NCBI GenBank assembly: GCA_013519935.1
Contig: JACDUA010000022.1
Coordinates: 1 to 58,651, forward strand
Reading direction: 5' to 3'
DNA length: 58,651 bases
Origin: Ectothiorhodospiraceae bacterium WFHF3C12
GTDB lineage: Bacteria > Pseudomonadota > Gammaproteobacteria > Nitrococcales > Nitrococcaceae
Position numbers and translations under genes: made by a program. Shown here piece by piece: positions 8,970-22,973 of the stretch. The notes under the pieces are model-generated. The model was not told the DNA's origin, searched no databases, and saw only the letters and a list, made by a program, of their open reading frames with translations. Every line of letters begins with the position of its first letter. Positions within the stretch are counted from its first letter, which is position 1.

Positions 8970-10466
8970 TTACCCGGCGACCTCCACCCGGTCGCGCCCT
9001 GATCGCTTGGCAAGATAGAGCGCGCGGTCGGCGGCACGCAACAGATGGTCGGTGTCCTCGAAGCCCGTGCCGTCGGCACCCAGGCCCGCAACCCCGATGG
9101 AGACCGTCACGGTCATGCCCGTCCCATCCGGCAGGGCAAATGTCTGCGCGCCCATGGCCCGGCGGATTCGCTCGAAGACCTGAACGCCGTCGGTTGGCGG
9201 CGTGCCCGGCAACAGGATGACGAATTCCTCGCCGCCGTAGCGCACCACGATGTCCTCGCCACGCACCTGGCGCCGAAGCAACGTCCCCACCTCCACCAGT
9301 ATGGCGTCGCCCGCCTGGTGGCCGTGTCGGTCGTTGACGACCTTGAAGTGATCCAGATCCAGAAAGCCGATGGAAAGCGGCCAGCCCTCGGCGAGGGCAT
9401 GCCGGAACTCCTCTTCCAGGCAGGCATCCAGATGACCGCGGTTGTACAGGCCGGTGAGCGGGTCCCGGCCGACCTGCTCCTGCAGCTCGCTGTGCAAACG
9501 CTTGTACTCGGCGGCCTCCCGGCGGTATTCGGTCGCCTCCTGCAGCAGCTGGAGATTGCGGGTCGCCAGCACCTCGCGGGCCTGATCCTTGAGGGCCGCG
9601 GCCTGGTGCGGTTCCAGTATGCTGAACTCGAACAGGGACTCGATCTCGGGAACGGTCTCCGCAAGGCCTTCCACCAACGCCACGGCGGCATCGTCGTCCA
9701 TGTCGAGCCAAGCGCCGGCCTGCCGGACCAGGGTATCCATGGCCGTCTCCTCGGGCTGGAGCGCATAGTCCGCGACCGGCCCGGAGACAGCGACGCAGGC
9801 GACGAAACGACTCAGCTCGGCCGGCGCCCGGCCCGCCTCCGGGCGATGGCTTCCACGGGCCGCGAGCGGCAGGTAATCCGGCAACCCCCATTTCTGCATC
9901 AGCCACGCGCCCGCCTCGGCATGATCGCAACCCAGTGCCTCGTACTCCATCGTCACCAGGGCATCATGATCGCTCGCCTTGCCAAGCAGCGCGTCGTATT
10001 GCTCGGGTAGCGCGGCGCGCAACGCCAGAATACCGATATCCTGCAGCAGGCCGGCGAGGAATAGCTCCTCCACCGATTCCAGACCCCGCGCATGCCCCGC
10101 CAGACGCGCCGCCGTCGCGGCCAGCAGCGAACGCCGCCAGACCCGGCCGACCATCGCCGTCCCGCCCGTCGCCCCACGCAGGCTGTCCGCCAGTGAAAAG
10201 CTCAGCGCCAGGGTCAGCGTGGCGTTCAGCCCCAGCAGCATCACGGCCTGCCGGAGGTTCTCGCAGCGGCGGCGCTGGCTGTAGAGGGGCGAATTGGCGA
10301 CCCGCAGGATCTTCGAGGTCAGGGCCGGGTCGTGGGCCAGCGTGCTCGCCAGGGCCCCCACGTCGACATCGGGATCGCGGCCCATCTCCACGATCTGCAG
10401 CGCCACGCCGGAAAGGCTGGGCAGGTCGGGACAAAGGCGCAGCGCGCGCTCGATTTCAGGCGTCAT
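8970..10466 (-). CDS. HDOD domain-GGDEF diguanylate cyclase
   Basis: 498 residues. The HDOD domain spans about residues 15-215 (DPALTSKILRVANSPLYSQR, AVMLLGLNATLTLALSFSL, FLAGLLQDIGILAL). A coiled-coil-rich linker (about 290-330, LLQEATEYRREAAEYKRLH) leads to a C-terminal GGDEF domain. The active-site loop is GGEEF and the inhibitory RxxD site (RGED) lies five residues before it, so an active, product-inhibited diguanylate cyclase is likely. GLYNRGHLDACLEEEF and DLDHFKVVNDRHGHQAGD are intact. HDOD is a protein-interaction module with degenerate HD phosphohydrolase residues. It is monocistronic. The 5' region shows no recognisable c-di-GMP riboswitch. Confidence 0.9.
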   Translation of the reverse strand: MTPEIERALRLCPDLPSLSGVALQIVEMGRDPDVDVGALASTLAHDPALTSKILRVANSPLYSQRRRCENLRQAVMLLGLNATLTLALSFSLADSLRGATGGTAMVGRVWRRSLLAATAARLAGHARGLESVEELFLAGLLQDIGILALRAALPEQYDALLGKASDHDALVTMEYEALGCDHAEAGAWLMQKWGLPDYLPLAARGSHRPEAGRAPAELSRFVACVAVSGPVADYALQPEETAMDTLVRQAGAWLDMDDDAAVALVEGLAETVPEIESLFEFSILEPHQAAALKDQAREVLATRNLQLLQEATEYRREAAEYKRLHSELQEQVGRDPLTGLYNRGHLDACLEEEFRHALAEGWPLSIGFLDLDHFKVVNDRHGHQAGDAILVEVGTLLRRQVRGEDIVVRYGGEEFVILLPGTPPTDGVQVFERIRRAMGAQTFALPDGTGMTVTVSIGVAGLGADGTGFEDTDHLLRAADRALYLAKRSGRDRVEVAG

Positions 10467-10797: not shown

Positions 10798-11460
10798 TCA
10801 GGCAACCGTCAGGTCGCGCTCCTCCACGACGCCACGCTCTATGACGAAGAGGCGGTTCAGCAACCCCACCGAGTGGGTATAGTCCGACTCGGACAGAACC
10901 ACCGTCACGCCCTCGCTCTGCAGGTCGGCAATGACCTCGGCAAGCCGGCGGGCCAGGGCCGGGGCGACGCCCTCGAAGGGCTCGTCGAGGAGCAGCAGGC
11001 GCTTGCCGCAGATGAGCGCCCGCCCCAGGGCGACGAGCTTCTGCTGCCCGCCGCTTAGGGTCACCGCCTTGCGCTCGGCCGAGCCGGCGATCTCCGGCAT
11101 GAGCTCGAAGACCCAGTCCAGCCTGTTCTGGTCCGGCCCGCGACCCGTGGCCCACAACGGCAGCAGGATGTTCTCCTTCACCGTGAAGTTGGGCACCAGC
11201 CGGCGATCCTCCGGCATGTATCCCACGGCGATGCCGGCCCGCTGATGCGGCGGCATGCGGGTGAGCTCATGATCGTCGAGTCGGATCTCGCCACGGCTGA
11301 TGGCCAGCAGCCCCATGATCGCGCGCATCAAGGTCGTCTTGCCCGCGCCGTTGCGGCCGACCAGACCCGCCGTCTGGCCGCCCGCCACGTCCAGGCTGAC
11401 GCCGTTGAGAATGGTGGTTCGAGCGATGGACGCCGTGACATCCCTGAGACTGAGCATCAT
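10798..11460 (-). CDS. livF: branched-chain/LIV-type ABC transporter ATP-binding protein LivF
   Basis: 220 residues. Cytoplasmic ATPase of a HAAT/LIV-type importer. Walker A is GRNGAGKTTLM, the Q-loop region is GIAVGYMPEDRRLVPNFTVKEN, the ABC signature is LSGGQQKLVALGRAL and Walker B is LLLLDEPFEGVAP. The switch His is replaced: the usual D-loop/H-loop stretch reads VVLSESDYTHSV. It is the last gene of the operon and overlaps livG by 4 bp (ATGA), indicating translational coupling. The substrate of this subclass need not be an amino acid; amides, urea and aromatic acids are also carried. Confidence 0.9.
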   Translation of the reverse strand: MMLSLRDVTASIARTTILNGVSLDVAGGQTAGLVGRNGAGKTTLMRAIMGLLAISRGEIRLDDHELTRMPPHQRAGIAVGYMPEDRRLVPNFTVKENILLPLWATGRGPDQNRLDWVFELMPEIAGSAERKAVTLSGGQQKLVALGRALICGKRLLLLDEPFEGVAPALARRLAEVIADLQSEGVTVVLSESDYTHSVGLLNRLFVIERGVVEERDLTVA

Positions 11461-12236
11461 TCACCTCCTCCCTGTCCGCCGCGCCGGTGCAGCTCGCCAC
11501 CGACGACGTACTGCCGCACGTCCGGATCCACCAGCACCTCGGCGGCGTCGCCGTCGGCGATGATGCGTCCGTCGTAGAAGGCCGCCACGCGCCGGGCGTA
11601 GCGCTCGACGATCTCCATGTCGTGCTCGACGAACAGCACCGTCACGCCACGCTGCCGGAGCGCGGACATCAACGTGTCCATCACCGCGAACTTCTCGTCC
11701 ACGCTAATGCCGCTGGTGGGCTCGTCGAGCATCATCAGCCGTGGCGAGGCCACGGTGGCCATGGCGATGTCCAGCAGCTTGCGTACGCCCTGGGCCAGCG
11801 TGCCGGCCGTGGCGTCGCGGTGCTCGGCGAGCTGAAACTGCTCGAGGACCTCCTCCGAGGCCGAGATCCATTCCGGCCGGCTCAGGCCGCGCCAGCCGCT
11901 GGACGCCCCGCCCCGGGCGATAGCCAGGGCGATGAGCACGTTCTCCAGCACCGTCAGCTCGCCGAATATCTGCGCCACCTGGAATGAACGGCAGATGCCC
12001 GCCCGGGTGACCTGGCGCGGCTTCATTCCCACCAGGTCGGTCTCCCCGAGGCGGATGCGGCCGGCGTCCGGCCGCAGGTAGCCCGTGACCATGTTCACGT
12101 AGCTAGTCTTGCCCGCGCCGTTGGCGCCGATCAGGGCCACGATCTCGCCCTCCTCGACGCTGAGGTTGACGTCGGTGGCGGCGCTGACGGCGCCGAACCG
12201 CTTGTGCAGGCCCTCGCTGCGGAGGATCGCTGTCAT
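11457..12236 (-). CDS. livG: branched-chain/LIV-type ABC transporter ATP-binding protein LivG
   Basis: 259 residues. Partner ATPase to LivF. It shows Walker A GANGAGKTSYVNMVTG, the Q-loop area RAGICRSFQVAQIFGELTV, a somewhat divergent signature (LAQGVRKLLDIAMATV), Walker B LMMLDEPTSGIS, and FVEHDMEIVERYARRV with an intact switch His. The start MTAILRSEG overlaps the livM stop by 4 bp (ATGA). A longer in-frame extension upstream lies inside livM and is rejected. Confidence 0.92.
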   Translation of the reverse strand: MTAILRSEGLHKRFGAVSAATDVNLSVEEGEIVALIGANGAGKTSYVNMVTGYLRPDAGRIRLGETDLVGMKPRQVTRAGICRSFQVAQIFGELTVLENVLIALAIARGGASSGWRGLSRPEWISASEEVLEQFQLAEHRDATAGTLAQGVRKLLDIAMATVASPRLMMLDEPTSGISVDEKFAVMDTLMSALRQRGVTVLFVEHDMEIVERYARRVAAFYDGRIIADGDAAEVLVDPDVRQYVVGGELHRRGGQGGGE

Positions 12237-13183
12237 GTCAGGCCCCCCTTCTTCCGCAGCCGCGTCAGCGACCACAGGCCGCCGGGCAGGAACATGATGA
12301 TGAGCAGCATCACGCCGCCCAGGATCATCTGCCACGTGTAGGGCGAGTACTCCACCGCGTAGACGCGGATCATCACCAGCAGGAAGGCGCCGATCAGCGG
12401 CGCGGCGACGTTACCGGTGCCGCTGAGCAGGGCGATGAAGACGAACTGGCCCGACGTTGTCCAGTAGGCCAGGTTGGGATCCACGTGCCCCACGGATATC
12501 CCGGCCAGTACGCCGCCGATGCCGGCGATGGCCGCCGCCATGACGTAGATCAGGTGCACCACGTACCGCGGCGAGGCCCCGAGGTATTCCACCCGCAGCT
12601 CGTTCTCGCGCACGGCCTCGCCGATGGCGCCCAGCGGCGAGCGCAGATAGCGGTGCACCGCGGCGGCGATGGCCAGCGCCACGATGCACGTGAACACGTA
12701 GCCGGCCTCCCGCAGCGCCTGGCCCTCCGGCGCATAGCCGAGGAACGTGGTGGAGGGCAGGTTGAAGCCGTCGGTGCTGCCCAGGGCCTCGGCGCGCACC
12801 AGAAGGCCGTAGAGGATCATCGACAGCGCCAGCGACAGCATGGCGTAGAAGATCTCCCGGTAGCGGGCCACCAGGAAGCCGACGATGAAGGACACGGCCA
12901 CGCTCAGCACCACGGCTAGCAGGAGCAGCACCAGCGCATCCGTAATGCCGAGGAAATGGCCGCTCATGCCTCCGGCGTAAGCACCGAGGCAGTAGTACAG
13001 GCCCTGCCCGAAGTTCACCAGGCCCGCGCGCATCTGCAGCATCACCGCCAGCGCGGCCAGGCCGCTGGCCAGGGACACCTGCAGATAGAAGGTCAGCCAG
13101 TCGGGCAGGGCATAACCCAGCACGAGCAGCACGGGCAACGCGGCCGCCAGGGAGACCAGTGTGGGATCCATTCGTCTGTTCAT
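12233..13183 (-). CDS. livM: branched-chain/LIV-type ABC transporter permease LivM
   Basis: 316 residues with about eight to ten hydrophobic segments. Inner-membrane permease of the importer. The family motif MRAGLVNFGQGLYYCLGAYAG (starting near residue 52) and the conserved loop SPLGAIGEAVRENELRVEYLG (the EAA-like cytoplasmic contact for the ATPases) are clear. The start MNRRMDPT overlaps the livH stop by 4 bp (ATGA); the longer open frame upstream is inside livH. Confidence 0.92.
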   Translation of the reverse strand: MNRRMDPTLVSLAAALPVLLVLGYALPDWLTFYLQVSLASGLAALAVMLQMRAGLVNFGQGLYYCLGAYAGGMSGHFLGITDALVLLLLAVVLSVAVSFIVGFLVARYREIFYAMLSLALSMILYGLLVRAEALGSTDGFNLPSTTFLGYAPEGQALREAGYVFTCIVALAIAAAVHRYLRSPLGAIGEAVRENELRVEYLGASPRYVVHLIYVMAAAIAGIGGVLAGISVGHVDPNLAYWTTSGQFVFIALLSGTGNVAAPLIGAFLLVMIRVYAVEYSPYTWQMILGGVMLLIIMFLPGGLWSLTRLRKKGGLT

Positions 13184-14076
13184 ATCTTTCGGGCCTCCGG
13201 CGCGGCGAACAGCCCATAGGGCCGGAAGGCGAGCACCAGCGCCATGACGGCGTAGATGACGAACAGCTCCACTTCCGGGAGCAGATGCACCGCCGCGGCC
13301 CGCAGGATGCCCACCAGCAATGCGCCGATCATGGCGCCGCCGATGCTGCCCAGACCGCCGATGACCACCACGGCGAAGGCCAGGACGATGACCTCCACGC
13401 CAATGCCCGGCGTCACCGAGATCTTCGGCGCGGTGAACGCGCCGCCCAGGGCCGCCAGCGTCGCGCCGATGACGAAGGTCACGGTGTACACCCGCTTGAC
13501 GTTCACGCCCATGGCGGTGCTCATCTCGCGGTCGTGGATGACGGCGGTGAGCAGGTGGCCCGTCCGGGTGCGGTTGATGGACCACCAGACTCCGAGACCG
13601 GTGAGGCCGGCCAGGCCCATGAGCAGGAAGTCATAGCCGGCATAGGGCAGGCCCATGACGTCGAAGTTGCCCAGCATCCCGTAGGGCTGGAAGGCGAAGT
13701 ACGGGCTCACCCCCCAGAACACCTTGATCAGGTCCTCCAGGATGAGGAATATCGCGTACGTGACCAGGATCATCAGCACCTCGTCCTGGCCGTACATGAA
13801 TCGCAGCACGCCCCGCTCGATGACCAGCCCGCAGACCAGCCCGGCGGCCAGGGCCGCGCCCACCAGCACGGCGAAGCTGAGCACGGGCACGTACCCGGCG
13901 GAGAAGTACGCGCCCACGAGCGACGCCGCGGTGTAGGCGCCAATGGCATAGAGGCTGCCGTGGGCAATGTTGAGGATCTTCATGACGCCGTAGATCAGCG
14001 TCAGACCCACCGACACCATGAACAGCCAGGACGCGTAGACCAGGCCGTCCAGCACGATCGCAACGTATGTGAGCAT
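13180..14076 (-). CDS. livH: branched-chain/LIV-type ABC transporter permease LivH
   Basis: 298 residues, polytopic. The N-terminus LDGLVYASWLFMVSVGLTLI and YGVMKILNIAHGSLYAIGAY are the family signature. The cytoplasmic loop around TRTGHLLTAVIHDREMSTAMG is the ATPase-coupling region. The first membrane gene of the livHMGF block, it lies 86 bp downstream of the binding-protein gene, from which it is separated by a strong hairpin. Confidence 0.92.
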   Translation of the reverse strand: MLTYVAIVLDGLVYASWLFMVSVGLTLIYGVMKILNIAHGSLYAIGAYTAASLVGAYFSAGYVPVLSFAVLVGAALAAGLVCGLVIERGVLRFMYGQDEVLMILVTYAIFLILEDLIKVFWGVSPYFAFQPYGMLGNFDVMGLPYAGYDFLLMGLAGLTGLGVWWSINRTRTGHLLTAVIHDREMSTAMGVNVKRVYTVTFVIGATLAALGGAFTAPKISVTPGIGVEVIVLAFAVVVIGGLGSIGGAMIGALLVGILRAAAVHLLPEVELFVIYAVMALVLAFRPYGLFAAPEARKI

Positions 14077-14162: not shown

Positions 14163-15470
14163 TCAGCAGTCTTCCGCGCCCTTGAAGCCGGACTCGATCC
14201 ACTCCAGGCCGTCCATGCCATCCGGCGGCATGACGCACTCGGCGTCGAAGCGCGTCATGTCCACCACCGTGGCCTCACCGTTGCTGTACTTGAACCGGCC
14301 GTAGGCCGTGCCCTGAACGGCCTGGTGGCCATTGGCGATACCCATGCGCACGGTGCCGGACGGCGTCTCCCATTCCAGCCCTTCGAGCGCGTCGATCACC
14401 GACTCCTGATCGGGCATGCCCATGCTGTCGCCCGCCGCCATCTCGATGGCCGACTTGGCGGCGAGAATGGCCTGGGTGATCTTGTAGGTGGGATAGGTGG
14501 CGCGCACCCCGTAACGGTCCATGTAGGCCTTCTCCAGCCAGGCTTTCATGGGCCCTTCCGGGGCGAACACGCCATGGGGCCCGCGGGCGCCGATGACCGT
14601 GCCCTCCGGCATCTGGTTGGCCAGCCGGTGCATGGCCGACTCGCCGGTGGTCAGGATGACGTCCGTTCGGGCGAACAGGCCCCGAGCCGCGCCCTGCAGC
14701 ACGAACGCCTCCAGGTCGCCACCCCAGAAGCTCGAGTGCACGGCATCGGCCGGGTTGGTCAGCAGCGCCGAGATCTCGGAGCCGTACTGGCCGGCGAAGA
14801 TCTTGGGGAACTGCTCGGTGGTGATCTCCACGCCCGGTTTCAGGGCCTCCACGGCGGCCGTGAAGTCCCGCCAGGAGTCCTGCCCCCAGGCGTAGTTCTG
14901 GTTGATGCCGGCGATGGAGCCGGTGTCGGGCTTGTCCGCCAGCAGGTAGCGCGCCGCCCCGACGCTGTCCAGCGTGGCGTGGGCGCCGGTGCGGAACAGG
15001 TAGTGGGGATCGGTCACCACGTCCTCGAATACCTGCGGCGTGCCGCAGTCGAAGAACAGGGTCAGGCGCTCAACCTCTTCGGCCACCGGCGCGATGGCCT
15101 TGCAGTTGCCGCTGGAAATGTAACCGATGACCAGATCAACCTCGTCCTTCTGCACCATCTTGCGGTAGTCGGCCACCACCTCACCGCTGGCCTCGTCGAC
15201 GAACACCGTGGTGATCTTCGCCCCGTTGATGCCCTTCTTGCCGTCGTAGGGGGCCGGGAACTCGCCCTTGTTGAGCGCCTCCACGACCAGCTCGGCACCA
15301 TTGCGCGCCGGCACGCCGAAGGGGCCGGCGGCGGCGCCGGAGAGGAACATGGCGAAGCCGATCTTGATCTCCTCGTCCTGGGCGTGAGCCGTGCCCGTCT
15401 GGCTCAGCCCCGCCGCGGTCAGCAGGCCGAGTGCGAGCGTCCAGAATGTCGTCATGGTTTTCTTGTGCAT
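14163..15470 (-). CDS. LIV-type ABC transporter periplasmic substrate-binding protein (proximal to livH)
   Basis: 435 residues. The signal peptide runs MHKKTMTTFWTLALGLLTAAG...AHA, then mature EEIKIGFAMFLSGAAAGPFG. This is a Peripla_BP_6-type two-lobe binding protein (PARNGAELVVEALN, VFVDEASGEVVADYRKMVQKD, VDLVIGYISSGNCKAIAPVAEE). Residues FFDCGTPQVFED and INQNYAWGQDSWRDF line the predicted cleft. The mature chain has five Cys, including C-terminal ECVMPP and GAEDC, which may form disulfides. The start is chosen by GGAGGAG upstream; an upstream ATG adds 14 non-signal residues. It belongs with livHMGF. The ligand is unknown; similarity to leucine binders is only at fold level. Confidence 0.88.
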   Translation of the reverse strand: MHKKTMTTFWTLALGLLTAAGLSQTGTAHAQDEEIKIGFAMFLSGAAAGPFGVPARNGAELVVEALNKGEFPAPYDGKKGINGAKITTVFVDEASGEVVADYRKMVQKDEVDLVIGYISSGNCKAIAPVAEEVERLTLFFDCGTPQVFEDVVTDPHYLFRTGAHATLDSVGAARYLLADKPDTGSIAGINQNYAWGQDSWRDFTAAVEALKPGVEITTEQFPKIFAGQYGSEISALLTNPADAVHSSFWGGDLEAFVLQGAARGLFARTDVILTTGESAMHRLANQMPEGTVIGARGPHGVFAPEGPMKAWLEKAYMDRYGVRATYPTYKITQAILAAKSAIEMAAGDSMGMPDQESVIDALEGLEWETPSGTVRMGIANGHQAVQGTAYGRFKYSNGEATVVDMTRFDAECVMPPDGMDGLEWIESGFKGAEDC

Positions 15471-15489
15471 GGTCTTGCTCCTCCGGATG

Positions 15490-15510
15490 GCCGGCGGCGC
15501 ATCCGCCGGC
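15490..15510 (-). promoter_or_regulatory. intercistronic hairpin before the binding-protein gene
   Basis: GCCGGCGG (15490-15497) and CCGCCGGC (15503-15510) form a perfect 8-bp stem with a 5-nt loop, just upstream of the ribosome site of the 14163-15470 gene. It may stabilise the downstream mRNA after processing. On the plus strand it is followed by ACGTTTTC, but no plus-strand gene needs it. Confidence 0.45.
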
Positions 15511-15531
15511 ACGTTTTCTCGTGAGTCGGTT

Positions 15532-16590
15532 CTACTTCACCACCACGGGGTTCACCGGCGCGCCGGTACCCTGTTCCATCTTCAGCGGCGCGGCCACGAA
15601 CAGGAAGCTGTACTGACCGTCCTCGGCGCTGTCATCGGCCAGCGCTTCCAGCCAGTGGATCTCGGTGAGAACGACGCCCATGTCGCGCATCAGCGCACCA
15701 TGGAGCGGGATGATGACGGTGTCGCCGTCGATCTGCTGGACGACCTTCTCCACGGCCAGGTTGTCCGCGGCGATGGCCGGGATCTCCATTTCGTCGATCC
15801 ATTCCACCAGCGCCTGGCTGTAGCAAAGGCCGGGCTCACTCATGGCATCCCATGCCGCGTCGGGCTCTTCCTCGTAGAAGCGGGGTATCGAGCCGGTGCG
15901 CAGCAGCAGGATGTCGCGCTTCTCGACGGTAACCCCCTGGGCCTCGGCGGTCGCCTTGAGGTCGTCGAGCGTGACGCAGGTATTGGGGGCGAGACGGTCA
16001 CTGTCGTTGCCCATGTGACGCCCGACGTCCAGCAGTACGCCCCGGCCGACGATACCGCGCTCGCCCAGGGCGGCCACGTCGGCCTGGGTATGGCCGTGGA
16101 TCGTGGAGTCCGCCGACACCCCGCCGTAAACCTCGTCGCCGTACCAGGCGTGAGCGAGGGCGTCCACGTGGGTGGTGCCCTGCAGGTACATGAACGCCAC
16201 GTCGTCGGAGAACTTCACACCGCCGGCCAGAACGTCGCTCTTGCCCGAGGCATAGATGCCTTCGTCCTGGGCCATGTAGTGCATGGTCGGCACGCGGCCC
16301 GGGAAAACCGGCCCCTTGCCGTGAGTCATCGGGATCTGCAGCGTGAAGGTCTCGCCGCTGCGCACCGCCTTGGTGCCCCGCATCACCTGATCCGCGTCCA
16401 GGTAGTTCAGGGCGCCGACCTCGTCGCCGTCACCCCACTTGCCCCAGTTGTTGGGGGCGTCCGCCTGCATGCGCTCCATGGCGGAGTCGGCCGCCAAGGC
16501 CGCACCGGCAACGCCAAGCATGGTGCCGGTTATCAGACCGAGCGCGAGCCGCCGGCCTCCCGTATGTCCTTTCAACCGCTTCGTGAGCAT
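15532..16590 (-). CDS. exported cyclase-family (kynurenine formamidase-like) metal-dependent hydrolase
   Basis: 352 residues. A cleavable N-terminal signal (LTKRLKGHTGGRRLALGLIT...GAALAADS) carries a twin-Arg pair, so Tat or Sec export to the periplasm is likely. The catalytic domain is PF04199-like: NNWGKWGDGDEVGALNYLD, then the metal-binding GTTHVDALAHAWYGD (the HxGTHxDxxxH-type motif, here with T before HVD), RGVLLDVGRHMG, and LLLRTGSI. Known members hydrolyse N-formylkynurenine, cyclic amides or isatin. The substrate here is unknown, but a periplasmic location between two binding-protein genes suggests it releases a ligand for import. The start is chosen for GGAGG 5 nt upstream; MEDD at 16602 is an alternative. 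Confidence 0.83.
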   Translation of the reverse strand: MLTKRLKGHTGGRRLALGLITGTMLGVAGAALAADSAMERMQADAPNNWGKWGDGDEVGALNYLDADQVMRGTKAVRSGETFTLQIPMTHGKGPVFPGRVPTMHYMAQDEGIYASGKSDVLAGGVKFSDDVAFMYLQGTTHVDALAHAWYGDEVYGGVSADSTIHGHTQADVAALGERGIVGRGVLLDVGRHMGNDSDRLAPNTCVTLDDLKATAEAQGVTVEKRDILLLRTGSIPRFYEEEPDAAWDAMSEPGLCYSQALVEWIDEMEIPAIAADNLAVEKVVQQIDGDTVIIPLHGALMRDMGVVLTEIHWLEALADDSAEDGQYSFLFVAAPLKMEQGTGAPVNPVVVK

Positions 16591-16627
16591 GTCGTCCTCC
16601 ATCCTCTGCTTGTTATGGGTATTGCCG

Positions 16628-17917
16628 TTACTGCGTTGGCGAGGCGGTTTCGCGATGCACCACGTCGCCGGACCCGCTGAGCTGCTCGGCGTCGTAGACG
16701 CGCCAGTTGCCCAGCATGGTGGTAGCGGGCGGATACGCCCGGTTCGGAACGACTTCGCCGATGGCCTGCATCTGCACGATCTGATGGGTCTCGGGGTCCA
16801 TGTAGGAGGTGAAACCCTCGGGATCTTCGGGGAGCTTGAGCCGGAGCTGCTCCAGCGCCGCGATCAGCTCGTCGGTGTCACGGGGATCGCCGACCTCCCC
16901 CACTACCTGGGCAATGGCCTTGATGCCCGCGTAAGCGCCTTCGGCGGCATAGCTGGGATAGCGCCCGGCATGCTCGTAGAAGCGGTTGACGAAGCGCCGG
17001 TTGGCCTCGGTATCCGGCCAGTTGTTGTGGTGCCGGGCGGAGAGCACCACGCCCAGCGGCATCTCGTCGCCCAGAGCGGCCATGACCTCGTAATTGCCGC
17101 CGGCGTCGAAATTGAAGAAGCGCATGCGCTCGAAGAGCTCCAGATTCCCGGCCTGACGGATGAACTGGACGGCATCGCCGCCCCAGTGTCCGTTGACCAG
17201 GATCTGCGGCGCCGCATCCAGGATCGCGTCTATGTAAGGCGTAAAGTCCGGCTCATAGAGCTTCGGCCAGAGCTCGACGACGATCTCGTAATCCACACCG
17301 AGGGCATCGAGCTGCTCGCGCATGTCCCGCCACATGACATGGCCGTAATCGTAGTCGGGGCCGATGAAGCCGATGCGCCGCCAGCCCGTGCGCGCCTGAA
17401 GCTCGGCCAGGTAGCGCGCGCCCGCCGCCATGGACTGCCGGGTATTGTTGGAGACCCGGAAATAGTACGGATGCCGGCTCTCGCCCGTGAGCCGCGAAGA
17501 GGCGTGGTCCGTGCCGACGAAAATGGTCTGCCGGCGACGGGCTACGTCGCTGACCGCCAGCCCCACCGCCGAGCTCACCGCGCCGCAGAGGAAATGCACG
17601 TTCTCGCGGCGTATGAACCGCTCCGCGATCTGCACCGCGTAGGCCGGTTTGGACTTGCTGTCCTCCACCAGCACCCGCAGGCGCCGTCCGGCGACACCGC
17701 CGTCGGCATTGACCTCGGCCACGGCCATCTCGATGGCGGCCACGCTATCCCGGCCGTAAAGGCCGCCGCGTCCGGTCATGGGGAACAGGCAACCGACGAG
17801 TAGCTCGTCACCGCTGGCCGCGGCGGTCACCCCGGGCGGCGCCTGGAACAGCAGTACGGCACCAAACAGCAGGGCCACCACGCGCCTGACCTGGCGTCGG
17901 GTTCTCCTCACTCCCAT
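16628..17917 (-). CDS. LIV/AmiC-type periplasmic substrate-binding protein, first gene of the sigma54 operon
   Basis: 429 residues. A basic N-terminus and hydrophobic segment (VRRVVALLFGAVLLFQAPPG) form a signal peptide. The mature protein starts near DELLVGCLFPMTGRGGLYG and follows the Peripla_BP_6/AmiC-FmdD pattern (AIEMAVAEVNADGGVAGRRL, VHFLCGAVSSAVGLAVSDVA, FIGPDYDYGHVMWRDM, ILVNGHWGGDAVQFIRQAG). Relatives bind short-chain amides, urea or amino acids. It is a second binding protein for a single livHMGF set and is quite different from the one at 14163-15470. The leader carries an enhancer-type sigma54 promoter. The ATG at 17917 is chosen because the signal peptide begins there, although the ribosome site (AAGAGAA) is weak. 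Confidence 0.85.
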   Translation of the reverse strand: MGVRRTRRQVRRVVALLFGAVLLFQAPPGVTAAASGDELLVGCLFPMTGRGGLYGRDSVAAIEMAVAEVNADGGVAGRRLRVLVEDSKSKPAYAVQIAERFIRRENVHFLCGAVSSAVGLAVSDVARRRQTIFVGTDHASSRLTGESRHPYYFRVSNNTRQSMAAGARYLAELQARTGWRRIGFIGPDYDYGHVMWRDMREQLDALGVDYEIVVELWPKLYEPDFTPYIDAILDAAPQILVNGHWGGDAVQFIRQAGNLELFERMRFFNFDAGGNYEVMAALGDEMPLGVVLSARHHNNWPDTEANRRFVNRFYEHAGRYPSYAAEGAYAGIKAIAQVVGEVGDPRDTDELIAALEQLRLKLPEDPEGFTSYMDPETHQIVQMQAIGEVVPNRAYPPATTMLGNWRVYDAEQLSGSGDVVHRETASPTQ

Positions 17918-17969
17918 AAGGCAGTTCTCTTTCTTGTTTCTACGGCGCGAAACCGTGCGGATGGAACGG

Positions 17970-17986
17970 TGCAAGGGCTGCACCAG
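17970..17986 (-). promoter_or_regulatory. sigma54 (-24/-12) promoter of the uptake operon
   Basis: Minus strand 17986-17970 reads CTGGTGCAGCCCTTGCA. The invariant GG and GC are separated by exactly 10 nt and the -12 box TTGCA is perfect. Predicted transcription starts near 17959, about 42 nt before the start codon of the binding-protein gene at 16628-17917. The neighbouring upstream gene encodes a sigma54 activator. Confidence 0.8.
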
Positions 17987-18005
17987 AATGGTTCCAGATC
18001 AGAGA

Positions 18006-18018
18006 AATCAAAGTGTTG
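18006..18018 (+). promoter_or_regulatory. IHF binding site consensus
   Basis: AATCAAAGTGTTG matches WATCAA-N4-TTR at every fixed position. It lies about 53 bp upstream of the predicted start, between the sigma54 promoter and the two dyads, where IHF usually bends DNA to bring activator and polymerase together. Confidence 0.65.
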
Positions 18019-18036
18019 GGCTTTCTCGTGCCCATA

Positions 18037-18081
18037 AACCCTTGCCCCGATGAGCGCCTGGCGCTCATCGGGGCAAGGGTT
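18037..18081. promoter_or_regulatory. 45-bp perfect palindrome containing activator site UAS2
   Basis: Arms of 22 bp (18037-18058 and 18060-18081) are fully complementary around T18059. The central part contains the half-sites GATGAGCGCC and GGCGCTCATC, which share ATGAGCG/CGCTCAT with the dyad at 18082-18100. The centre is about 100 bp upstream of the predicted start, ideal for an NtrC-type enhancer. As RNA the outer arms would make a very stable hairpin 46 bp beyond the response regulator stop, so it may double as its terminator. Confidence 0.7.
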
Positions 18082-18100
18082 ATGAGCGGTAACCGCTCAT
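18082..18100. promoter_or_regulatory. activator site UAS1
   Basis: The perfect 19-bp dyad ATGAGCGGTAACCGCTCAT is centred at 18091, 32 bp from the centre of UAS2, so the two sites lie on the same DNA face (about three turns). It lies about 132 bp upstream of the predicted start. The likely binder is the Fis-type helix-turn-helix of the adjacent response regulator. Confidence 0.7.
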
Positions 18101-18126
18101 CACGCGCTTCGCGAACCGCCGGAAGA

Positions 18127-19467
18127 CTATTGCAGCCCGAGTCGCTGAAGGCGCCGTTTCAGCGCGTGACGGGAGATGCCCAGAGCCGCGGCGGCGCGCC
18201 CCTTCTGACCGCCGGCCTGGGAAAGGGCACGCAGGAGGATGTCGCGTTCGGTGGAGGCCAGACGGGCGTCCAGGAGTCCCGCTTCACCGGACTGCTCGGC
18301 GGCACCGAACTCCGCCGGCAGATGGCCGGGCTGGATATCGGCACCGGGATACAGAATGGTCAGCCGTTCCACCAGGTTCTTGAGCTCGCGGACGTTGCCC
18401 GGCCAGCCGTAACCCTCGAGCATGGCCGTGGCCTCGGGGCTGAACGTCACGGGCTGGCAGTTCTCCGCCCCAGCGATCTGCTCGGCGAAGTGCAACGCGA
18501 GGATGCCGATGTCGCCGCCGCGCTCGGCCAGCCGCGGCACCACCAGGGGCACCACGTTGAGCCGGTAGAACAGATCGGCGCGGAACCGCCCATCCCGGGC
18601 CTCCGCCTCGATATCGCGGTTGGTGGCGGCCACGACACGCACGTCGGTAACGCGCTCCCGGGCGGCACCCACCGGCCGGAAGGAGCGGTTCTCGATGAAG
18701 TGCAACAGCTTGGCCTGAAGGTGCAGCGGCAATTCGCCGATCTCGTCCAGCAGCAGCGTGCCGCCGTCGGCGAGCTGCGCCAGCCCGGGCCGGCGGTGAT
18801 CCGCGCCCGTGTAGGCGCCCTTCTCGGCGCCGAACAGCTCCGCCTCCAGCAGGCTCTCGGGTAGCGCGGCGCAGTTGATCTCGACGAACGGCCCGTCGGC
18901 GACCGTGCTCTGGTTATGGATCGCCCTCGCGACCAGTGCCTTGCCGGTGCCGGACTCGCCCAGAAGCAGCACCGTGCGCGTGTTGCTGCGGGCGACCGTG
19001 GCGATGCGCTCGCGCAGCGTTGCCACGGCGTCGGACGCGCCCAACAGGCCGTCCTGGTCCACGGACTGGCGCCGGTGATAGCGCACCTCCTGGGACAGGC
19101 GGCCGTGCTCCGTGGCGCGGCGAATGAGATGGACCAGCTCGTCCAGATCGAAGGGCTTGGTCAGGAAGTCCTCGGCCCCCTTCTTCACCGCCTCCACCGC
19201 CACCCGGGTCTCGCCGTAGGCGGAGATCATCACCACCGGCATGTCCGGGAGCCGCTCGCGCAGCTTGCCGAGCACCTCGATGCCGGATTCGTCCGGCAGG
19301 CGCAGGTCGATCAGCACGAGATCCGGCTCCAGCCGCAGCGCCGCCGTTAGGCCGGAGGCACCGTCGTAGGCGCCCTCGGCGCGGATGGCGTGGGCACGCA
19401 GCCCATAGACCAGCGAGTTCACGAGATTCCGTTCATCGTCGACGATGAGCACCTGCGGCGAGCGCAT
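18127..19467 (-). CDS. NtrC-family sigma54-dependent response regulator
   Basis: 446 residues in three domains. The receiver (1-120) has DD10-11, phospho-acceptor D54 (LVLIDLRLPDESG), S82 and K104. The AAA+ domain has Walker A GESGTGKALVARA, the sigma54-contact loop GAYTGA (Tyr in place of the usual Phe of GAFTGA, a known variant), Walker B GGTLLLDEIGELP and arginine-finger region DLFYRLNVVPL. The C-terminal Fis-type helix-turn-helix is GRAAAALGISRHALKRRLQR. An AGGAG ribosome site precedes the ATG. The kinase gene ends 57 bp upstream, so the pair is cotranscribed. Immediately downstream are two dyads, an IHF site and a sigma54 promoter driving the uptake operon, which is the predicted target. 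Confidence 0.93.
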   Translation of the reverse strand: MRSPQVLIVDDERNLVNSLVYGLRAHAIRAEGAYDGASGLTAALRLEPDLVLIDLRLPDESGIEVLGKLRERLPDMPVVMISAYGETRVAVEAVKKGAEDFLTKPFDLDELVHLIRRATEHGRLSQEVRYHRRQSVDQDGLLGASDAVATLRERIATVARSNTRTVLLLGESGTGKALVARAIHNQSTVADGPFVEINCAALPESLLEAELFGAEKGAYTGADHRRPGLAQLADGGTLLLDEIGELPLHLQAKLLHFIENRSFRPVGAARERVTDVRVVAATNRDIEAEARDGRFRADLFYRLNVVPLVVPRLAERGGDIGILALHFAEQIAGAENCQPVTFSPEATAMLEGYGWPGNVRELKNLVERLTILYPGADIQPGHLPAEFGAAEQSGEAGLLDARLASTERDILLRALSQAGGQKGRAAAALGISRHALKRRLQRLGLQ

Positions 19468-19524: not shown

Positions 19525-21240
19525 CTAGTGCCCGCGGCCCTGCCCGGCTCCCTCGGCACCGCCGGCCCGCGGCAGCGTGATGGTAACCGTGGTCCCCTGT
19601 CCCGGTGCGCTGGCAAAACTCAGCTCACCGCGATTAAGTTCCACGAGCTGACGGGTGATGGCAAGCCCGAGACCCGTGCCGTCGGCCCGCGTGGTGTAGA
19701 ACGGATCGGTAATCCGCCCCAGCGCGTCCGCCGGAATGCCGACGCCAGTGTCCCTGACCTCGATTTCGATATTGTCGCCTGCGGCCGCCGCCCGCAGCGT
19801 GAGCTGGCCGCCCTCCGGCATGGCCTGCATCGCGTTGAGCACCAGGTTCATCATGATCTGTTGAAGATGGAACGGATCGGCCTGCACGTGGGCGTCGCGA
19901 AGGCCGGCGGCCACGGTGCTGACGCCCGCGTCCCGCGCCTGCTTGTCCACCATGCCCAGCAGACGCCGGAAAAGGTCGCGAACTGAAACGGTCTCGAACT
20001 GGGGCTCGTGGGGCCGCGCGAAGTTCAGGACCTCCTCCAGGGTCTCGTCCAGGCGGTCGATCTCGTCGCCCAGCACGTTGAGAATCTGCCGTCGCTCCGT
20101 GTCGGCCTCCCCCACCGCCAGCCCCTGGACGCTGGTTTTCACGGTCGCCAGGGGGTTGCGTATCTCATGGGCGATGCCGGCCGCGAACTGGCCCAGCAGC
20201 GCCATCTTCTCCATTTCCACCGTGGAGCGCACCACCCTTTGCAGTCGCTCCGCCATGCCGTTGAACGCGCGGGCCAGAATGGCGACTTCGTCCCGGCCGA
20301 CGGGCCGGATACGCCAGGACAGGTTGCCGGAGGCCACCTCCTCGGCACCGTCCACCAGCTGGCCGATGCGGCCACGGGTGCGCCGCAGGAAGACGAAGTA
20401 GACCAGGGGTAGCAGCAGCACGATGCCGGCCACGGCCACGACCATGGCGTAACGCACCCGCTGCAGGGGCATGACCAGCTCTTCGCCCTCGACCACCAGC
20501 GCGGGACGCCAGCCGGGTATCAGCGACGCCCCCTTGATGACGCGACCGTCCGGCTGAGTGGGCAGGCCGACGTTGGAAAACGCACGGCCGTCGTCGGCCA
20601 TCAGCACGGGATAGAACAGGCCGGTCTCATCCTCGTTGCCCAGCAGCTCGGTGACCGAGGACAGGCGTACATGCAGCGCAATGGTGCCGAGGCGCTCGTC
20701 GCCCGGGGTGCGACCCGGCAGGTCGCGGGCCATGAGGAAGAAACCGGGATGCCCGGTGCGCGGCGCCACGGGGCCGAATATCCGCCCTTCGGGCGTGTCG
20801 ATCCGGTTGAGACCTTCCAGAGAGAAGGTGCCCTCGCCCCAGTAGGGCGGCCCGGAGGCAGCCCGGCCGGGGATGGCACGCACCAGCTGCCCCCAGCGGT
20901 CGAAGAGCAACACGCCGTAGAGATCGGGCTGATCCGCCTCGAACTCCACCACGGCCTTGAGCCCCTGCTCGAGGTTCAGCTCCGCGTCCGCGCGCAGCAG
21001 CGTGTGCACCGCGGGATAGCCGGCCAGGTTCTCCAGGGCGTACCAGCGCGCGTCCATGAATGCACGGAGGCGGCCGGATACCGCCGCCAGCCGCCGCTCC
21101 ATGCGCTCACCGGTCAGGGAATCGATCAGATTGACGCTGTAGCGGTCGTACAGCGCCGACACGATCAGCAGCGGCACCAATGCCGCCAGCAGCGAAAACG
21201 CGAAGAACTTGCCTGCGAGGCTCTTGCGCCAGGATACCAT
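19525..21240 (-). CDS. membrane sensor histidine kinase (Cache-like sensor-HAMP-HisKA-HATPase)
   Basis: 571 residues. A first membrane helix (about 13-35) and a second (about 270-292, AMVVAVAGIVLLLPLVYFVF) bracket a periplasmic domain of about 235 residues with a Cache-like pattern (MDARWYALENLAGYPAV, GVLLFDRWGQLVRAIPG, GFFLMARDLPG). HAMP (RGRIGQLVDGAEEVASGNLS) is followed by the phospho-acceptor box AAGIAHEIRNPLATVK and the ATPase boxes MMNLVLNAMQAMPEGG, DTGVGIP and GTGLGLAI. The architecture is close to NtrB/ZraS-like kinases that partner sigma54 activators. It probably senses a small extracellular ligand, perhaps the one imported by the operon. The ATG at 21240 is chosen; an upstream GTG (21279) is possible. 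Confidence 0.9.
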   Translation of the reverse strand: MVSWRKSLAGKFFAFSLLAALVPLLIVSALYDRYSVNLIDSLTGERMERRLAAVSGRLRAFMDARWYALENLAGYPAVHTLLRADAELNLEQGLKAVVEFEADQPDLYGVLLFDRWGQLVRAIPGRAASGPPYWGEGTFSLEGLNRIDTPEGRIFGPVAPRTGHPGFFLMARDLPGRTPGDERLGTIALHVRLSSVTELLGNEDETGLFYPVLMADDGRAFSNVGLPTQPDGRVIKGASLIPGWRPALVVEGEELVMPLQRVRYAMVVAVAGIVLLLPLVYFVFLRRTRGRIGQLVDGAEEVASGNLSWRIRPVGRDEVAILARAFNGMAERLQRVVRSTVEMEKMALLGQFAAGIAHEIRNPLATVKTSVQGLAVGEADTERRQILNVLGDEIDRLDETLEEVLNFARPHEPQFETVSVRDLFRRLLGMVDKQARDAGVSTVAAGLRDAHVQADPFHLQQIMMNLVLNAMQAMPEGGQLTLRAAAAGDNIEIEVRDTGVGIPADALGRITDPFYTTRADGTGLGLAITRQLVELNRGELSFASAPGQGTTVTITLPRAGGAEGAGQGRGH

Positions 21241-21344
21241 TGGGGCTTCTGATAGCTGCGGCGGCGCGGCAACCCGCACACGCGGCCACTGTGATTACCC
21301 CCTCCAGGGGACGCCGACCCGCTCGATGGCGGGATACCAGCCGT

Positions 21345-22973
21345 TCAGACGGCCTCCGCCCGGGCCTGTCCCTGCGGTACCGCCGAACGGCCCAGAATCA
21401 TGTCCGCGGCCTTCTCGCCAATCATTATCGCCGGGGCGTTGGTGTTGCCGCCCATGACCGTGGGCATGACGGAGGCGTCCACCACGCGCAGGCCCTCGAG
21501 GCCGTGAACGCGCAGCTCCTCGTCGACCACCGCCATGTCGTCCTGGCCCATCTTGCAGGTGCCCACCGGGTGGTAGACGGTATCCGCCCGCTGCCGGATG
21601 GCCTCGGCGATATCCGCATCGGTGCGCGCATTCGCCGTATAGATGTCGCGGCCCGCGTACTTGCGCAGGGGCGCGGCATCCAGGATCTCCCGCATGAGCC
21701 CGTATCCCCGGACCATGTCCTGCATGTCCCGTTCATCCCCGAGGAAGTTGGGGTCGATACGCGGCGGGCTCTTCCAGTCGGCGTCGCGCAGGCGAACGCT
21801 GCCGCGGCTGCGCGGCCGCAACAGGCAGACGTGGCAGCTGTAACCGTGCCCGAGATGCAGTTTGCGGCTGTGGTCGTCGACGATGCCGACGACGAAATGC
21901 AGCTGGAACTCGGGCGCCTCGCTGTCAGCGTGCGCCTTGAGGAAGCCGCCGGCCTCGGCGAAGTTCGTGGTGAGCATGCCGGTGTGGTCCCGCCGGTACT
22001 CGCCGACGGCCCGCAGCATGCGCATGCCGCCTCGGGCGGAGAAACCGAAAAGCTCCCGCGCGGCGGGCGCCTTCGACTTGAAGCAGGCCACGTAGTCAAT
22101 GTGGTCGTGCAGGTTCTCGCCCACGCCCGGCAGCACGCGCACCGGGCTGATGCCATGACGCTTGAGCTCCGCCTCGGGTCCGACCCCGGAGAGCAGCAGG
22201 ATCTGCGGGCTCTGCAGCGCGCCGGCACTGAGAATCACCTCCGAGCTGGCGCGCACCTGGTGCTCGGCGCCGCGCCGGCTGTACGCCACGCCCACGGCCC
22301 GCTCGCCCTCGAACAGCACCCGCGTGACATGGGCCTGCGTGATAACCGTGAGATTGGGCCGGTCCAGAACCGGGGTCAGAAACGCTTTGGCGGCGCTGCA
22401 GCGCTCGCCATCCTTCTGCGTGACCTGGTACAGGCCCACGCCGGCCTGCTCGGCGGCGTTGAAATCCCGGTTGTGGCCGTGTCCGGCGGCCTCCCCCGCC
22501 TCCACGAATACCTCGTCGATGGGATTGGGCGAGCGCAGATCGGCAACGTTCAGGGGACCGCCGACACCGTGCCAGGCGTCGGCGCCGCGCTCCTGGTTCT
22601 CCGAGCGCTTGAAATAGGGCAGCACCTCTTCGTAGGACCAGCCCCGGTTTCCGAGGGCCGCCCAGTGGTCGTAGTCGATCCGGTGGCCACGCATGTAGAT
22701 CATGGCGTTGATGGAGCTGCTGCCGCCCAGGGTCTTGCCGCGAGGCTGATAACCGCGACGGTTGTTCAGGCCGGGCTGCGGCTCGGTCTGGAAGGCCCAG
22801 TTGCAGTGCTTCGTCGGCAGAATCGCGGCGGTGCCGGCGGGCACGTGGATGAACAGGCTACGGTCGGGTTTGCCGGCCTCCAGCAGGCAGACGCTGACAT
22901 CGGGATCCGCCGACAGGCGGTTCGCCAGCACGCATCCGGCGGACCCGCCACCAACGATGATGTAATCGTACAT
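21345..22973 (-). CDS. GMC-family FAD dehydrogenase, AlkJ/choline dehydrogenase-like
   Basis: 542 residues. FAD motif YIIVGGGSAGCVLANRLSAD at the N-terminus, then the GMC signatures RGKTLGGSSSINAMIYMRGH and GALQSPQILLLSGVG. The C-terminal catalytic region has YHPVGTCKMG (catalytic His) and DASVMPTVMGGNTNAPAIMI. The pattern over the full length resembles AlkJ, a membrane-associated alcohol dehydrogenase feeding electrons to quinone, and choline dehydrogenases; the substrate is not determined. It has a strong GAGGAGGAG ribosome site and lies 104 bp upstream of the kinase gene, so it may be the first gene of a dehydrogenase-kinase-regulator unit. This suggests that the signal sensed relates to an alcohol. 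Confidence 0.88.
   Translation of the reverse strand: MYDYIIVGGGSAGCVLANRLSADPDVSVCLLEAGKPDRSLFIHVPAGTAAILPTKHCNWAFQTEPQPGLNNRRGYQPRGKTLGGSSSINAMIYMRGHRIDYDHWAALGNRGWSYEEVLPYFKRSENQERGADAWHGVGGPLNVADLRSPNPIDEVFVEAGEAAGHGHNRDFNAAEQAGVGLYQVTQKDGERCSAAKAFLTPVLDRPNLTVITQAHVTRVLFEGERAVGVAYSRRGAEHQVRASSEVILSAGALQSPQILLLSGVGPEAELKRHGISPVRVLPGVGENLHDHIDYVACFKSKAPAARELFGFSARGGMRMLRAVGEYRRDHTGMLTTNFAEAGGFLKAHADSEAPEFQLHFVVGIVDDHSRKLHLGHGYSCHVCLLRPRSRGSVRLRDADWKSPPRIDPNFLGDERDMQDMVRGYGLMREILDAAPLRKYAGRDIYTANARTDADIAEAIRQRADTVYHPVGTCKMGQDDMAVVDEELRVHGLEGLRVVDASVMPTVMGGNTNAPAIMIGEKAADMILGRSAVPQGQARAEAV

Follow-up and report, generated by a model that had tools for sequence, protein, structure and literature searches.

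Tandem dyads and a sigma54 promoter before a Liv/Urt-type uptake operon: a predicted enhancer for the adjacent NtrC-type two-component system

In the DctB-DctD and AauS-AauR systems, a histidine kinase and an NtrC-family response regulator control uptake genes with sigma54. MifS-MifR is another system of this type with an uptake-gene target, as described in the available text of PMC4482717. The locus described here has in common with these systems a membrane kinase, an NtrC-type regulator, sigma54 and a transport-gene target. It differs from them in that the target is an ABC importer of the Liv/Urt type that has two binding proteins, and loci of its kind have an alcohol dehydrogenase or a cyclase as partners. 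Its operator sequence, too, appears to be its own. The permease, ATPase and binding-protein families of the operon are those of the UrtABCDE and LivJHMGF importers; however, its genes fell below the curated UrtA-E and Liv cut-offs among the matches listed, and the substrate may therefore differ from those of Urt and Liv. Likewise, the regulator reached none of the NCBIfam equivalog cut-offs (AtoC, NtrC, NtrX, ZraR and others) among the matches listed. In that comparison, for which four proteins were judged on their best 25 matches each, a cut-off was reached by the GMC protein only and by no transport, kinase or regulator gene among the matches listed. No description of the operator was found in the available text of the literature searched (preprints not covered); the four occurrences of tgagcg in that of PMC4482717 are all in primers, and the alcohol regulators named in that of PMC12997753 are other than the one considered here.

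The window, by which is meant the whole 58,651-nucleotide stretch of Ectothiorhodospiraceae bacterium WFHF3C12 that was analysed, carries the locus on its minus strand in the order GMC oxidoreductase, histidine kinase (HK), NtrC-type regulator, control region, SBP1, cyclase-family enzyme, SBP2, LivH, LivM, LivG and LivF. The features are as follows.

21345-22973, minus strand: GMC oxidoreductase, directly upstream of the kinase and above the choline dehydrogenase subfamily cut-off
19525-21279, minus strand: sensor histidine kinase (HAMP, HisKA and HATPase_c by Pfam)
18127-19467, minus strand: NtrC-family response regulator (REC, AAA+ with GAYTGA, Fis-type HTH)
18082-18100, strand not applicable: distal dyad (putative enhancer half 1), ATGAGCGgtaacCGCTCAT, centre 18091
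18050-18068, strand not applicable: proximal dyad (putative enhancer half 2), ATGAGCGcctggCGCTCAT, centre 18059
18037-18081, strand not applicable: perfect 45-bp palindrome with 22-bp arms and a 1-nt centre, the proximal dyad forming its core
18006-18018, plus strand: exact IHF-type consensus match, AATCAAAGTGTTG, not kept in relatives
17985-17970, minus strand: sigma54 -24/-12 promoter, TGGTGCAGCCCTTGCA, GG-N10-GC, 9/12 consensus positions
16628-17917, minus strand: SBP1, periplasmic binding protein (Peripla_BP_6), first operon gene
15532-16602, minus strand: cyclase-family enzyme (PF04199), its N-terminus resembling a signal peptide by eye
14163-15512, minus strand: SBP2, second periplasmic binding protein
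13180-14076, minus strand: LivH/UrtB-type permease
12233-13153, minus strand: LivM/UrtC-type permease
11457-12227, minus strand: LivG/UrtD-type ATPase
10798-11460, minus strand: LivF/UrtE-type ATPase

The start of SBP1 was set, as a matter of judgement, at the ATG at 17917 rather than at that of a longer GTG open reading frame. The Pfam domains of the regulator are Response_reg, Sigma54_activat and Fis-type HTH_8; it combines the REC domain, an AAA+ domain with a GAFTGA-type loop (here GAYTGA) and the Fis-type HTH that define the NtrC family, and its Walker A lysine and D54 are conserved. In the model of the kinase, residues ~100-263 form a mixed helix/strand domain that is taken as a putative extracytoplasmic sensor; a fold search with this model (pTM 0.44) returned 50 listed matches, mostly kinase cores and some photoreceptor kinases, and did not identify the sensor fold. 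In this genome the GMC oxidoreductase may be a partner that oxidises alcohols. Immediately after the operon, on the same strand, 8970-10466 encodes a signalling protein with a GGDEF-like C-terminal sequence, as read from its translation.

The control region lies behind the HK and NtrC genes. Both dyads are perfect copies of ATGAGCG-N5-CGCTCAT with 5-bp spacers, lie 32 bp apart and precede the sigma54 promoter and the SBP1-cyclase-SBP2-LivH-M-G-F operon. The -24 element is the weaker part of the promoter match (TGGTGC for TGGCAC), and a sigma54 gene is present in the genome. The initial annotation, made from the letters alone, had reported two perfect dyads with a common half-site 32 bp apart, a -24/-12 promoter with correct GG-N10-GC spacing and, upstream, an NtrC-family activator with a Fis-type HTH preceded by its kinase; the dyads and the promoter were found where it had placed them, and Pfam confirmed the activator and the kinase.

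The best account of this arrangement, to which a probability of about 0.9 is given from the sequence comparisons below, is that the region serves as enhancer and promoter for an uptake operon that is induced by its substrate and run by the adjacent kinase-regulator pair. The membrane kinase would sense a solute, either by itself or together with a periplasmic binding protein, and would phosphorylate D54 of the NtrC-type regulator. Dimers of the regulator, two in number, would bind the tandem dyads on one helix face, about three turns apart, and would assemble into an AAA+ oligomer. The DNA from the proximal dyad to the -24/-12 promoter would then loop and bring the oligomer into contact with the sigma54 form of RNA polymerase, the open complex would form under its action, and the SBP1-cyclase-SBP2-LivHMGF genes would be transcribed. 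Binding, phosphorylation, looping, the solute and any help from IHF in this genome are the parts of this scheme arrived at by inference.

The dyad is specific to this place. Genome-wide scoring had been proposed in the initial annotation as a check, and it was found that the 4.6-Mb, 168-contig assembly holds perfect copies nowhere but here. The next best is a single site with 1 mismatch (contig C35, locus L050), within 300 bp of which no sigma54 site of at least 9/12 was found. Across 30 whole genomes, TGAGCG-N5-CGCTCA occurred 51 times (in 26 genomes), compared with 5 times for the reversed control. By hand count from the listing, 34 of the 51 belong to this locus or to the operon detached from it; the other 17 include 5 in genome G422 and 6 in G445. 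In G422, a Rhodomicrobium, extra perfect dyads (L134 and L135) lack a sigma54 site of 9/12 within 300 bp.

The same arrangement was then sought in other organisms. Of 54 genomes searched, four of the same taxonomic order had regulator orthologues (57-61% identical), and in each of these the corresponding gap held a sigma54 site of 10/12 and two dyads, each with 0-3 mismatches of 14. In a class sample of 369 genomes, the regulator at E 1e-115 and SBP1 at E 1e-90 each recovered the genome of the window only (1/369), and SBP1 at E 1e-90 recovered 8 of 398 genomes in a phylum sample. A larger set was obtained by an SBP1-alignment scan, which gave 108 candidates, the best 80 of which were kept (L051-L130); as these loci were gathered through SBP1 similarity, with many from Pseudomonas and Thalassospira, they are related by descent. 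A regulator match was present in 77 of the 80 (all except L086, L087 and L111), mostly in the order HK-NtrC-SBP1-SBP2-LivHMGF. L087 and L111, which may be regulated in trans, have tandem operators before SBP1 and no regulator match in the flanks retrieved.

A strict pair was defined as two dyads of at most 2 mismatches of 12 each, one or both with at most 1, at most 3 in total, and a start distance of 29-43. Such pairs were found in 71/80 loci, and in 0/80 for each of 13 control half-sites (permuted or reversed). The loci with pairs include Alpha-, Beta- and Gammaproteobacteria and one Anaeromyxobacteraceae record. Among the nine loci that lack a strict pair, L077 and L089 each retain one perfect dyad, L068, L092 and L129 have weaker pairs before SBP2, L079 and L081 are described below, L086 is cut at the contig end and L056 has no operator in view. 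Together with L131, L132 and the window, the set yielded 75 strict pairs from 74 sources, the 42-bp pair of L126 probably being a chance second one. The dyads are 30-34 bp apart in 69 pairs and 41-42 bp apart in 6, which corresponds to about 3 or 4 helical turns and suggests tandem activator sites on one helix face. The gene next after the pair is SBP1 in 68 cases, SBP2 in 5 and HK in 2; in L053 and L128 the assignment to SBP2 is a cross-match, and these were counted as SBP1.

Behind 67 of the 75 pairs lies a sigma54 site of at least 9/12; the reverse strand gives 1/75, and mononucleotide shuffles average 1.8. Four of the eight pairs without such a site are moved operators (see below). The best scores among the eight were 8 for L054, L105 and L115, 7 for the pair before HK in L124 and 6 for L116, and no site of 6/12 or more followed the pairs of L053, L117 and L130. 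Seven further loci (L140-L146) were also inspected, and five of them (L142-L146) have a strict pair; L140, L141, L143 and L145 are not independent, because they contain 200-bp stretches identical to L079, L081, L064 and L078, respectively. In L144 the pair lies behind SBP1 and is followed by no sigma54 site of 9/12, and in L146, with a 43% SBP1 relative, a sigma54 site of 9/12 lies 212 bp from the pair. Judged by these comparisons, the operator and its sigma54 promoter look to be conserved across classes, and to be real, widespread and ordinary in kind.

The proximal dyad and the promoter are separated by distances that group near 57, 68, 80, 91, 102, 114 and 138 bp; 122, 128 and 158 fall off the clusters, and the 82 of the window is slightly off. 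When each group contributed one state per distance (n = 27 to 32), the best period was 11.2-11.5 bp and 0 of 20000 draws of either null reached it. With one value per group (20 groups) the mean R was 0.63, against a null 95% point of 0.51, and with each distinct distance taken once (10-15 values) p was 0.017-0.043 with best periods of 11.15-11.55. At exactly 10.5 bp, R was low (0.23-0.36). The first of these tests are weakened by shared descent, and the distance from dyad to promoter is likely, though not proven, to be helically phased. At the Vibrio qrr promoters the regulator is LuxO and the targets are small RNAs. The loop lengths of these sigma54 enhancers cluster in ~11-bp steps according to the available text of PMC4740811; the family of the window resembles them in this respect and differs in regulator and targets.

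The other element between dyads and promoter is the IHF match. The IHF consensus is WATCAANNNNTTR, and an IHF site between enhancer and promoter is common, not obligatory, at sigma54 enhancer-type promoters. The initial annotation had included an exact site in the design. That site is present in the window, but it is the only exact one in 67 dyad-promoter intervals. One mismatch was found in 3/67 (shuffle mean 1.1, maximum 5) and two in 13/67 (shuffle mean 12.4), so that looser matches were not clearly enriched, and IHF does not appear to be a general feature. The genome has three IHF/HU-type genes, and help from IHF in this genome is possible, outside the conserved design.

The place of the operator changes with the arrangement of the genes. 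Where regulator and SBP1 are separated by at least 100 bp, the pair lies before SBP1 in 64 of 65 loci, the exception being L077. The gap is below 100 bp in 10 of the 77 loci that have a regulator match, and L056 and L080 have the regulator on the opposite strand. By a looser criterion, a pair precedes SBP2 in 7 of the ten abutting loci: those of L099, L116 and L117 are good, that of L130 has 3+1 mismatches and those of L068, L092 and L129 are weak. In L124 the pair lies before HK, and a single perfect dyad lies before SBP2. In Marinobacter changyiensis, the HK-NtrC-SBP1 locus (L079) has no dyads, and the detached SBP2-Liv operon (L132) has a pair and a sigma54 site; L081 and L131 are arranged similarly, with the pair before SBP2 of the separate operon. 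Sigma54 sites of at least 9/12 accompany the moved operators of L068, L092, L099, L131 and L132 and the L124 dyad before SBP2, and none was found at those of L116, L117, L129 and L130. About half of the moved operators have no recognisable sigma54 site, several of these being in Alphaproteobacteria. Dyads also occur before the kinase gene, singly in L117 (2032) and L129 (2872) and as pairs in L124 (2797) and L130 (2787), which suggests autoregulation; none of these four sites is followed by a recognised sigma54 site of 9/12.

The initial annotation had read the region as an enhancer and sigma54 promoter with a cognate regulator. The 71/80 tandem pairs against 0/80 in controls, the sigma54 sites after 67/75 pairs and the relocation of the operator upon gene rearrangement support this reading, as does the regulator itself. 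Across 78 orthologues its recognition helix, SRHALKRR, hardly varies: every one has S432 and R433, 77 have H434 and A435, and 74 have K437 (3 not aligned). S, R and A are also frequent in the 25 paralogues, of which 24 carry R or K at 434 and 24 carry Y, R or W at 437. Of the orthologues, 77/78 keep D54 and K104 (1 not aligned), and H371 of the kinase is kept in 77/77.

It is improbable that the dyads bind another regulator, such as a repressor or a different NtrC-type protein, with the adjacent one acting elsewhere. Binding by the adjacent protein is predicted from sequence, the genome encodes 10 NtrC-type matches at E 1e-60 or better, 9 of them apart from the regulator gene, and several moved operators have no recognised sigma54 site, all of which would suit such a regulator. 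However, the regulator match accompanies 77 of the 80 loci with its near-invariant helix, no perfect ATGAGCG or TGAGCG dyad was listed for the 25 paralogue loci (L006-L030), and most pairs stand at enhancer distance from a sigma54 site (67/75).

The palindrome around the proximal dyad had been overlooked in the initial annotation. The RNA fold of 18030-18085 is -46.9 kcal/mol (z about -10), and only TTT comes after the palindrome on the minus strand. Among the other 149 dyads examined the longest arm is 10, and none matches the palindrome of the window. A repeat family was rejected, as the 22-nt arm was found nowhere else in the genome at up to 3 mismatches, and a known RNA family was rejected on 0 Rfam matches at gathering score in 17500-18600. 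That the dyads are intrinsic terminators or RNA hairpins ending the kinase-regulator transcript, rather than protein sites, would fit their position past the regulator stop codon in most loci and the stable fold of the palindrome in the window, but this is the least probable account and was rejected as a sole explanation, since most of the 5-nt spacers lack self-complementarity (91/150 dyads already fail at the innermost pair), a scan of 17500-18600 found no terminator-like site, the pairs of several loci stand before SBP2 or HK instead of behind the regulator as the operator shifts with the genes, and tandem spacing in helical steps is unexpected of terminators. Only in the window might the palindrome combine both roles, doubling as a terminator-like hairpin of the regulator transcript.

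Within the preferred reading of an enhancer served by the adjacent pair, a more specific proposal is advanced tentatively, and is rather doubtful: SBP1 might act as a periplasmic co-sensor and not mainly in transport, HK-NtrC-SBP1 might form a portable cassette for an alcohol or related solute, and the enhancer might be held by helical phase (~11.2-11.5 bp steps) and not by a conserved IHF bend. The idea of a co-sensor comes from SBP1 remaining with kinase and regulator when the transporter departs, a view biased by the loci having been found via SBP1.

The neighbouring enzymes bear on the solute. Matches to iron-type alcohol dehydrogenases occur in 52/80 loci and to zinc-type in 17/80, almost always directly after LivF; six more loci, which partly repeat the same places, bring the counts to 52/86 and 21/86. 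The two types alternate at one operon position after LivF (L051-L130). The cyclase was matched in 9/86 loci, two of them weak (24-25% identity). In the window, the cyclase and the GMC oxidoreductase are present and no such alcohol dehydrogenase lies beside the operon; a 68% relative is encoded elsewhere in the genome. Among binding proteins of solved structure, 3i45 and 4ey3 come closest in sequence; their ligands are aromatic acids. As a guess, the solute may be an alcohol, perhaps an aromatic one.

For a two-component system without a named counterpart among the matches listed, an operator, a promoter and a target operon can thereby be predicted, together with a likely class of substrate. 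These predictions are testable in culturable Pseudomonas, Marinobacter or Thalassospira. Phased loop lengths would add a second natural family, beside Vibrio qrr, in which to study the constraint that sigma54 enhancers place on the evolution of spacer length.
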